Shown one piece after another: positions 2-20,485 of a stretch of DNA of 33,569 nt. The position numbers and the translations under genes are program-made. The notes under the pieces are model-generated. The model ran no database searches and had not been told where the DNA came from. It worked only from the letters and a program-made list of their open reading frames with translations. Numbering within the stretch: the stretch's first letter is position 1; every line of letters begins with the position of its first letter. The stretch is from Planctomycetota bacterium (GTDB lineage Bacteria > Planctomycetota > Planctomycetia > Pirellulales > Lacipirellulaceae): the NCBI GenBank assembly GCA_013152515.1, contig JAADGD010000188.1:1-33569 (forward strand), in the 5' to 3' direction.

Positions 2-817
2 TCGTGGTTGCTGCTGCTCGGTCGCGGCACGAGTTCGCACCGATTGCTAAGCGATCTGTTTGACGAAGCGACGCGCGAAGACGAAAGTCAGACGCAATGG
101 AATCGAGCTTTCGTTTATCCAACCGTTGTCTTCCTGGGATCACTGGGAGTACTCCTATTTCTTTGTGTCACGTTGGTCCCTGCATTTAAGAGCATTTTTG
201 ACGATTTTGATTTAGATTTGCCCATCATAACCGTATGGACTGTGGGAATCTCGAGCATGATGCTGAGAAACCCGATTGGTTTTGTGTTTGGTATTTCTGC
301 TGCTTTGGGAGCCTGTTACCTCCTGATGCAACTCGTCCGCATCTGGGGGTTACCAGGGCGATTGGGGGGGTTGTTGACCACTGGCAGTTCATGGCAAGTG
401 ACCGCCGTGGCGCGATTTACACGCCAGTTGGCCGAAGCACTTGACGCGGGGTTGGAGCTGCCTGCGGCGCTGCGGCTTGCTGGAGGAGTTGGCAAACAAA
501 GCACGATGCGCCGCATTGCACTGCGACTCGCCAACGATGCGGAGCGGGAAGATTTTGATCTGAATACTTCGCCCCTGGCACGTCGGCTACCCTCGACGAT
601 GGTCCACGCATTGCAGGCAGGCGCAGACAACAGGCCGAGCATCCCTTTGCTGCGGCAGTTGGCGGAACTCTATACCACACGAGTCCGTGACCGACACAAT
701 TGGGCGACCGGATTCATGGCCCAATTTGCCATCCTCGGCATGGGAATCACGGTGGGGTTTGTTGTGTTGGCGCTCTTCATACCGTTGGTGCAACTAATTA
801 ATGGGCTAACGGGATAA
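2..817 (+). CDS. GspF-family type II secretion inner-membrane protein, 5' end outside window
   Basis: The reading frame is open from the first complete codon at position 2, so the start lies upstream; the in-frame TTG at 8 is probably an internal Leu. The visible 272 residues hold a membrane segment near residues 35-60, another near 85-110, a cytoplasmic domain and a C-terminal membrane segment. The stretch FTRQLAEALDAGLELPAALR is the typical start of the second T2SF (GspF/PilC) domain, followed by the usual C-terminal hydrophobic segment ending in LIPLVQLI-like residues. GspF proteins sit in the inner membrane and couple the assembly ATPase to pseudopilus growth. A second GspF-like gene follows at 1077 and three pseudopilin genes follow that, so the gene belongs to a pseudopilus operon. 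The gap to the next gene is occupied by a repeat element. Family assignment is firm; the exact system (type II secretion or a planctomycete pilus) is open. Confidence 0.88.
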   Translation, partial: SWLLLLGRGTSSHRLLSDLFDEATREDESQTQWNRAFVYPTVVFLGSLGVLLFLCVTLVPAFKSIFDDFDLDLPIITVWTVGISSMMLRNPIGFVFGISAALGACYLLMQLVRIWGLPGRLGGLLTTGSSWQVTAVARFTRQLAEALDAGLELPAALRLAGGVGKQSTMRRIALRLANDAEREDFDLNTSPLARRLPSTMVHALQAGADNRPSIPLLRQLAELYTTRVRDRHNWATGFMAQFAILGMGITVGFVVLALFIPLVQLINGLTG

Positions 818-843
818 TCACATGAAACACGCAAAAAGAAATA

Positions 844-1048
844 GTAACCTTTCACGGCGAGGAAAGAAGAAAAAGGAAAAGCCACAGATAAACACGGATA
901 AACGCAGATGAGGAAGGATTTATTAGCCGAATTGGATTGCCGAAAAGAAAAATGGGGGGAATAGCGGAAAAATTCCGACTCCCTCCAGGAAATCGGTGTT
1001 TATCTGTGTTCATCGGTGGCTATTTTTTTCCCTCGCGTGAACTGTTAC
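844..1048 (+). mobile_element. MITE-like element, copy 1 (about 205 bp, terminal inverted repeats)
   Basis: This fills the gap between the two GspF-like genes. It begins GTAACCTTTCACGG and ends CGTGAACTGTTAC, which are inverted repeats of each other with one or two mismatches. Inside it a second inverted pair is visible: CCACAGATAAACACGGAT near 881-898 and GTGTTTATCTGTGTTCATC near 992-1010, so the whole unit could fold back on itself. No coding frame is present. The reverse complement of the same sequence occurs at 20105-20318 with most positions matching by eye. Flanking target duplication is not clear here (an A-rich sequence on both sides), unlike the second copy. Confidence 0.8.
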
Positions 1049-1076
1049 GAAAAAAACTACCACAAGGATCTCGATT

Positions 1077-2192
1077 TTGAGTCAACTGTTTCCTACCTTT
1101 GCTCGATTTTTGCCGTGGCTTGAATTTCCGGTCTGGCCGCTGTCGTCGTGGACGAGTACGCCGTGGTGGCCGGCAGATACGCTCGCCTCGAAGCAACGTG
1201 CCTTGTTGCAAGTGTTGTCGGTGGCGGTCTCGCAGCGGTTGGAACTTGCACCGCTGGTTATGAGTTTGGCCCAAGAACATCGGGGACGCTACCGCCGTCG
1301 ACTCGCCCGCTTGGCCAAGCGAATGGCTGCGGGCACCTCGCTGCCTGACGCCTTAGAACAAACGCCTGGCGCTCTCTCCGACGAGCAGATGCTCGCCATC
1401 CGTTTTGGCATTCAATCGGGAACACTCACCGAAGCCTTAGATTCCTTAGTCACCCAGCAAGAACAATCCTCCAGCCCGATCAGCCACCGCCTGCGACAAA
1501 TCGGCTTTTATGGAGTGCTTGTGGCCTCGCTGTTTTTCTTGGTGCTGTCGTTCATTCTCATAAAGATTGTTCCGAGCTTTCAAGCGATCTTGGACGATTT
1601 CGAACTCGATATTACCGAGCCACTCAAGCAGTTGATAATCATCTCGAATGCACTGGTCGATATGTGGTGGCTGTTTGCGCTGGCGCTCTTGTTGTGTGTT
1701 TGGCTGATAAGGTCGGAATACTCGCAACGTTTTTTCCGTCGTCGTGTGCTGTCGCGAATTTTTAGGCCGGTGGCTCAACTTCGCTCGGCCAATTTGCTGA
1801 ATTTGTTGGCGATTGCACAACAAGCGGGCCGACCGCTGTCGGGGACGCTTTCGACTTTGGCGCGGTACCACTACGACTCGATGATCCGTCACAAGTTGCT
1901 TTTTGTCCGCAACGAAGTCGAGCAAGGCGCAGACCTCTGGACGAGCCTGACCCAAGCCCGCTTGCTTTCGCCGGTCGAATCGCGTGCCTTGACGAAATCG
2001 ACCGCGGCGAAATCGACCGTTTGGACCTTACGGCATCTGGCCACATGGAAACGCGATCTGGTCGCGCGACGCTTTGATATCTATGTCGACTTTTTATTAC
2101 CGGTGGTGATCGTGATAATGGCCTCGGTCGTACTCCTCACCGCCCTGGCGACGCTGACGCCACTGTTCAAACTGATTGATAATTTGAGCTAA
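1077..2192 (+). CDS. Second GspF-family type II secretion/pilus assembly membrane protein
   Basis: This is a 371-residue protein with two T2SF domains. Domain 1 (about residues 45-165) contains the typical pattern LAKRMAAGTSLPDALEQTPG, and a membrane segment follows near 143-165. A second pair of membrane segments lies near 195-215 and 340-365. The start is TTG at 1077, chosen because AAGGA at 1064-1068 lies 8 bases upstream and the alternative in-frame starts have no ribosome site. It is shorter than typical GspF (about 400 residues) because the N-terminus is brief. The stop at 2192 is followed after two bases by the next ATG, so it is co-transcribed with the pseudopilins. Two GspF-type genes side by side could form a heteromeric platform or a split-paralogue arrangement; the sequence cannot decide. 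Confidence 0.88.
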   Translation: MSQLFPTFARFLPWLEFPVWPLSSWTSTPWWPADTLASKQRALLQVLSVAVSQRLELAPLVMSLAQEHRGRYRRRLARLAKRMAAGTSLPDALEQTPGALSDEQMLAIRFGIQSGTLTEALDSLVTQQEQSSSPISHRLRQIGFYGVLVASLFFLVLSFILIKIVPSFQAILDDFELDITEPLKQLIIISNALVDMWWLFALALLLCVWLIRSEYSQRFFRRRVLSRIFRPVAQLRSANLLNLLAIAQQAGRPLSGTLSTLARYHYDSMIRHKLLFVRNEVEQGADLWTSLTQARLLSPVESRALTKSTAAKSTVWTLRHLATWKRDLVARRFDIYVDFLLPVVIVIMASVVLLTALATLTPLFKLIDNLS

Positions 2193-19932: not shown

Positions 19933-20104
19933 TGCAGACTCCTCAAGTGGTCTCTGGACGCCCGGCACTCTGGGCGTTGGTTTTATTGGTGGTCTCATCC
20001 TCTGATCATCCTCTTCGAATTCTAGCGGACGAATGTTGGATTCGGTAGGCTAGGGGGCTTTTGCGGCTCGCTCAACATGGGTTTTTGCTGCGGTCCCCCA
20101 ATTC

Positions 20105-20318
20105 GTAACCGTTGACGCGAGGGGAAAAATTAGCCACGGATGAACACAGATAAACACCGATTTCCTGGAGGGATTCGGAGCTTTTTCGCTATTTCTCCCC
20201 TATTTCTTTTCAGCAATCGAATTCGGCTAATAAACCCTTTCCTCATCTGCGTTTATCCGTGTTTATCCGCGTTTATCTGTGGCTTTTCCTTTTTCTTCTT
20301 TCAGCCGTGAACGGTTAC
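20105..20318 (-). mobile_element. MITE-like element, copy 2 (214 bp) with perfect 8-bp target duplication
   Basis: It begins GTAACCGTTGACGCG and ends CCGTGAACGGTTAC, inverted repeats. The sequence between is the reverse complement of copy 1 (844-1048) at most positions, including the AGCCACGGATGAACACAGAT block and the central GGAGGGATTCGGAGC. Directly outside, CCCAATTC occurs at 20097-20104 and again at 20319-20326, a perfect 8-bp duplication. No reading frame is inside. It fills most of the gap 19933-20485, which otherwise shows no gene. Confidence 0.88.
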
Positions 20319-20485
20319 CCCAATTCTAGCCCTTGAAATGGCTTCAAGCTGGATTTTGCCAGGTTGCCGTAGTACGTACCGCCGTCGCGACCCCGAATAA
20401 CGGCCTAACGCTTTCATCTGTACGCCCAAAGGCTTAGGATCGTTTGCTGAGTTCGCGACTCTGCTCCAGAACAACAGCAAGCCCC

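Follow-up and report, generated by a model that had tools for sequence, protein, structure and literature searches.

Two inverted copies of a gene-free element

The window analysed here (33,569 bp, a single contig) carries two short elements that are very probably copies of a non-autonomous MITE. The inverted ends of this MITE are those of an IS66 subgroup (single-ORF, ISBst12-like), whose transposase would act in trans. Both copies lack a gene of their own. A DDE_Tnp_IS66 transposase ORF was found inside neither of them, and therefore they are not themselves IS66 elements.

Copy 1 is 214 bp long (20105–20318, forward strand), with IS66-type ends and a foldback interior. Its 13-bp terminal inverted repeats are GTAACCGTTGACG on the left (20105–20117, forward strand) and GTAACCGTTCACG, read inward, on the right (20306–20318, reverse strand), with 12 of 13 positions identical. 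The element is exactly abutted on both sides by a perfect 8-bp target duplication, CCCAATTC (20097–20104 and 20319–20326, no strand assigned). A reading made from the sequence only had described this unit by its short inverted ends and perfect duplication, and both were confirmed. Divergent reading frames flank the copy.

Copy 2 (844–1048, reverse strand, 205 bp) is inverted relative to copy 1 and, as its reverse complement, 86% identical to it across the full length. Its ends are GTAACCTTTCACG (844–856, forward strand) and GTAACAGTTCACG, read inward (1036–1048, reverse strand). The flanks, AAGAAATA and GAAAAAAA, agree at only 5 of 8 positions, a level reached by ~9% of random flank pairings, and do not form a duplication. 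The second copy is thus as it had been announced, inverted, with matching ends and without a duplication. It is located between two co-directional frames (window 8–2192) of an apparent operon; by inspection only, these look like GspF-like type II secretion genes. The longest exact tracts that the two copies have in common reach 35 bp, so that recombination between them, with inversion of the intervening 19 kb, would be possible.

Copy number and target duplications in the genome

The source genome (G000), from a planctomycete, is a 3.7-Mb draft of 329 contigs, 79.9% complete. A search of this assembly revealed ~41 homologous copies, 80–100% identical, which are spread over many contigs and both strands. 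Uninterrupted copies of the family measured 194–219 bp.

Target duplications were scored for 39 element candidates, each bounded by two GTAACCGTTCACG-like ends. The mobility of the element had been made to depend on the presence of duplications at other copies, and a perfect 8-bp duplication was found in 21 of the 39. Five more matched at 7 of 8 positions, bringing those with at least 7/8 to 26, and most others were near the chance level. When left flanks were paired with the right flanks of other elements, 8/8 matches occurred in 0.07% of pairings. No abutting exact repeats of 5–7 or 9–12 bp were present among the 39 elements; two 4-bp matches were. The 8-bp duplications were AT-rich, with A never occurring at position 8. 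On contig C313, two MITE copies lie 57 bp apart (L029:1501–1708 and 1765–1968), each with a perfect 8-bp duplication. These duplications differ (CGAAAATC vs. AACGTACC), and therefore the two copies are separate insertions.

The end pattern GTAACNGTTNACG had 66 + 64 matches in the genome (130), compared with 1 + 5 (6) for the reversed control pattern. This is more than the copies of the MITE family account for. Elements of ~150–200 bp with unrelated interiors carry the same ends and have duplications too (e.g. GAATATGG, TTGCAATC, TAGTTTCT), and in other genomes of the same order these ends are likewise found around different interiors. Because same-ended elements have unrelated interiors, the transposase seems to need little beyond the ends.

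Several further loci were recorded. Elements of 147–163 bp with GTAACCGTTCACG ends and unrelated interiors occur at L098, L099, L101, L102 and others (genomes G000, G007, G127, G139 and G157); those of G127 include GTAGGCTGGGTCGAGCG..GCCCACC repeats. Palindromes of ~35 bp, formed by two IS66-type ends back to back (GTAACCGTTCACGGC..GCCTTGAACGGTTAC), are found at L090 (~1215–1249) and L120 (~2560–2592). Possibly, these are minimal end pairs.

IS66 as the presumed driver

In the source genome, the IS66 transposase fragments at C270, C219 and C310 all have GTAACCGTTCACGG at the 3′ end. The gene on C270 runs off the contig edge, and those on C219 and C310 contain stops; in the 79.9%-complete draft, only such truncated or stop-bearing genes of the subgroup were found, and no intact one. 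The closest relatives of these transposases are mostly in Planctomycetota. In a related IS66 gene of G022 and at further Planctomycetota loci, GTAACCGTTCACGG lies 17–221 bp past the IS66 match. A complete IS66 element was found on JAJDEJ010000255.1 (L112). It measures 1,483 bp, contains an open frame of 484 residues and is bounded on either side by GTAACCGTTCACGG; its flanks agree at 4 of 8 positions, without a surviving duplication. The likely candidate for a transposase with matching inverted repeats, which the sequence-only reading had said to look for, is this subgroup, represented both in the source genome and in other Planctomycetota.

IS66 elements are known for ends beginning with GTAA and for 8-bp duplications (PMC11946415), and ISDge4, of the ISBst12 group of IS66, likewise has GTAA-type ends and an 8-bp duplication (PMC12898284). 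Given the shared ends, the 8-bp duplications and these published features, mobilisation in trans by the IS66 subgroup is the most likely explanation. The proposal of movement by a DDE transposase in trans is supported by the number of copies, by duplications of exactly 8 bp and by the matching IS66 ends. An IS66 DDE transposase, supplied in trans, would bind the GTAACCGTTCACG ends, and the element would then be inserted at staggered 8-bp cuts.

The homology between the MITE and IS66 is limited to the 13–14-bp ends; no resemblance to IS66 can be recognised in the interior. It could be asked whether the MITE belongs to another DDE family whose members likewise duplicate 8 bp, its likeness to IS66 ends being convergent. 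The brevity of the common stretch speaks for this, as does the presence, in the same genus, of IS66 elements with other ends (GTAACTACTCAGCGG, GTAACACTTCAGCC). However, those ends likewise start with GTAAC, and in one IS66 subgroup the transposase gene is directly followed by the exact 14-mer GTAACCGTTCACGG at many independent loci. We therefore regard convergence as unlikely.

Foldback interior

The interior of the MITE is a foldback, with arms of CACNGATNAA-type repeats around a variable loop. In copy 1, the 5′ arm (AGCCACGGATGAACACAGATAAACACCGATT, forward strand, 20132–20162) consists of ~10-bp CACNGATNAA repeats, and the 3′ arm (CATCTGCGTTTATCCGTGTTTATCCGCGTTTATCTGTGGCT, forward strand, 20244–20284) has one 10-bp unit more than the consensus in the alignment. 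Copies vary in how many such units their 3′ arm contains. In sister copies, the arm equivalent to this 5′ arm harbours a nested, hairpin-ended element. As RNA, copy 1 folds with −75.9 kcal/mol, vs. −46.6 for shuffled sequences (z-score −7.4); for copy 2, the DNA z-score is −5.0. Folding and arm alignment bear out the internal foldback that had been suggested for the element. The arm motifs alone, without the remaining element, match in many genomes of the same family and order. The strings of the arms and palindromes were not found in the literature searched.

Such a stable foldback raises the question of whether the repeat is not mobile but mainly a hairpin with a function in RNA or DNA (REP-like or terminator-like), maintained by selection. 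The arms are more conserved (93–97%) than the loop (83%), and the positions of copy 1 between divergent frames and of copy 2 between co-directional frames would suit such a role. However, the clean 8-bp duplications at many sites largely refute it. Furthermore, compensatory change in the stem is nearly absent (3 double-change cells of 1,413), and therefore we do not claim a selected hairpin or RNA structure. No Rfam match was obtained in the window, and the element is absent at orthologous sites. At the orthologous place upstream of a cobalamin-adenosyltransferase-like gene, nine congeners have no element ends, in intergenic DNA too diverged to show a single CCCAATTC. A hairpin function as the main explanation is thus highly improbable; the hairpin may still have a secondary role after insertion of the MITE.

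A second element nested in the MITE arms

Several copies of the MITE family are interrupted within one of the CCACGGAT/GATAAAC arms. Comparison of interrupted and uninterrupted copies placed the insertion point between GATAAA (or GATGAA) and CAC or ACA, at a C. The insert starts with a hairpin, CC[CT]AGCGCGGC..GCCGCAACC or similar, and closes with another hairpin-like stretch, followed by CGTTAGTA. It has no terminal inverted repeats. The pattern of its left end had 49 matches in the source genome and 21 in the complete planctomycete genome G333, vs. none for the reversed control. Over all copies, the flanks read roughly CCAC[GA][GA]ANNNC on the left and ACAC[GA][GA]A on the right. Among 30 two-ended copies, 2 bp were repeated in nine and 3 bp in none; a duplication longer than the shared C (1 bp) does not fit. 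The composite MITE on C86 (376 bp) has retained its perfect 8-bp duplication, and in the congener G008 (L069) a MITE arm is broken at the same insertion point.

Most nested copies have no gene. In the source genome, the gene-free inserts are 139–414 bp long, and their interiors contain CGCAGAG, GACAGGATTTACAGGAT, CGCAAAGGCG and other palindromes. At L195 and L206, near-identical host sites carry inserts of different length at one insertion point, suggesting repeated insertion or cassette exchange. The G000 loci L153–L211 comprise gene-free derivatives with similar ends and CGCAGAG, GACAGGATTTACAGGAT, CGCAAAGGCGCGAAG and CCCCTCCC..GGGAGGGG palindromes.

A version of the nested element with a gene, broken in our reading by a stop and a frameshift, is present on C46 (L048:466–2542, G000). 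In G333, the related gene is a 518-aa ORF, found at no fewer than 10 equal-scoring places that share an identical block. There the element is ~1.7 kb long (L135:1225–2928), and the left-end search added further copies. The insertions are for the most part in repeat arms of the CCAC[GA][GA]A type. Searches of the 518-aa protein against Pfam, NCBIfam, PHROGs and PDB matched only a C-terminal winged helix and no transposase family. Distant relatives occur on plasmids of Paraburkholderia, Caballeronia, Rhodococcus and Mycolicibacterium, as "hypothetical" or "ArsR" where annotated. Phage records contained no relatives, and viral contigs contained one fragment (311 aa), whose predicted structure, made without an alignment, was uninformative (pLDDT 31). 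Judging from the repeated copies with fixed ends, the protein is presumably a transposase.

Whether these inserts represent an undescribed transposon family is, in our estimate, an evenly balanced question. Such a family would use the MITE arms, with the flank patterns given above, as preferred sites. It would have subterminal hairpins (CC[CT]AGCGCGGCC..GGCCGCAACC and ..TTGCGC..CGTTAGTA / GTAGTA), a duplication of at most 1 bp and a ~510–550-aa enzyme of unrecognised type, and its gene-free derivatives would carry CGCAGAGACGCAGAG, GACAGGATTTACAGGAT and CGCAAAGGCGCGAAG palindromes.

These arms are precisely the target of the nested element, which is equally abundant (49 ends). One could suppose, then, that it had itself spread the copies in a REP/RAYT-like manner, with the IS66 ends being incidental. 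We give this hardly any credence, since the 8-bp duplications lie outside the GTAAC ends and not around the arms, and a nested element is missing from most copies, among them the two in the window. For copy 1 of the window, such an origin is refuted by the CCCAATTC duplication at its GTAAC ends.

Comparison with known systems

The window elements resemble the ISBst12 subgroup of IS66, including ISDge4 (PMC12898284), in their GTAAC-starting ends and in duplicating 8 bp of target. Like that subgroup, the presumed driver has one transposase ORF, of ~480 aa. The window elements themselves are without a gene and have the ends alone in common with IS66, and their end sequence, GTAACCGTTCACGG, is not that of ISDge4 (GTAACTGCTCAGCA).

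In being short, gene-free, present in several to many copies and bounded by IS-matching ends, they are similar to MITECca01, derived from IS982 (PMC9769881), and MITEPsy1 (PMC3189936). They differ from both by the presumed IS66 driver, the repeat-armed foldback interior and the several unrelated interiors per end type. No report of an IS66-derived MITE was found in the literature searched. As an element, the window MITE is of an ordinary type, and the case for its driver is good; it is a well-documented example of unrelated interiors mobilised by IS66 ends.

The layered structure is more surprising and more novel. REP sequences are known as IS targets (PMC1525189), and there, too, a palindromic intergenic repeat is the preferred landing site for another IS. 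Here, in contrast, it is a MITE arm that forms the palindrome, and the element landing there lies outside the families recognised in the libraries searched. The nested element differs from IS200/IS605 and REP/RAYT in its protein, which is 507–550 aa long and has a C-terminal winged helix, with no HUH/Y1 match detected in Pfam, NCBIfam, PHROGs or PDB. It is like them in having subterminal hairpins, no terminal inverted repeats and at most 1 bp of duplication, and its target is likewise conserved in the left flank. Mobility is layered here: foldbacks with repeat arms are carried by IS66 ends, and their arms in turn receive a second transposon with hairpin ends, which brings palindromic repeats with it. 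If confirmed, this would provide a concrete mechanism for the spread of several interspersed palindromes in environmental bacteria, as well as a new enzyme, and the nested transposon would be a vehicle for interspersed bacterial repeats of unexplained origin.
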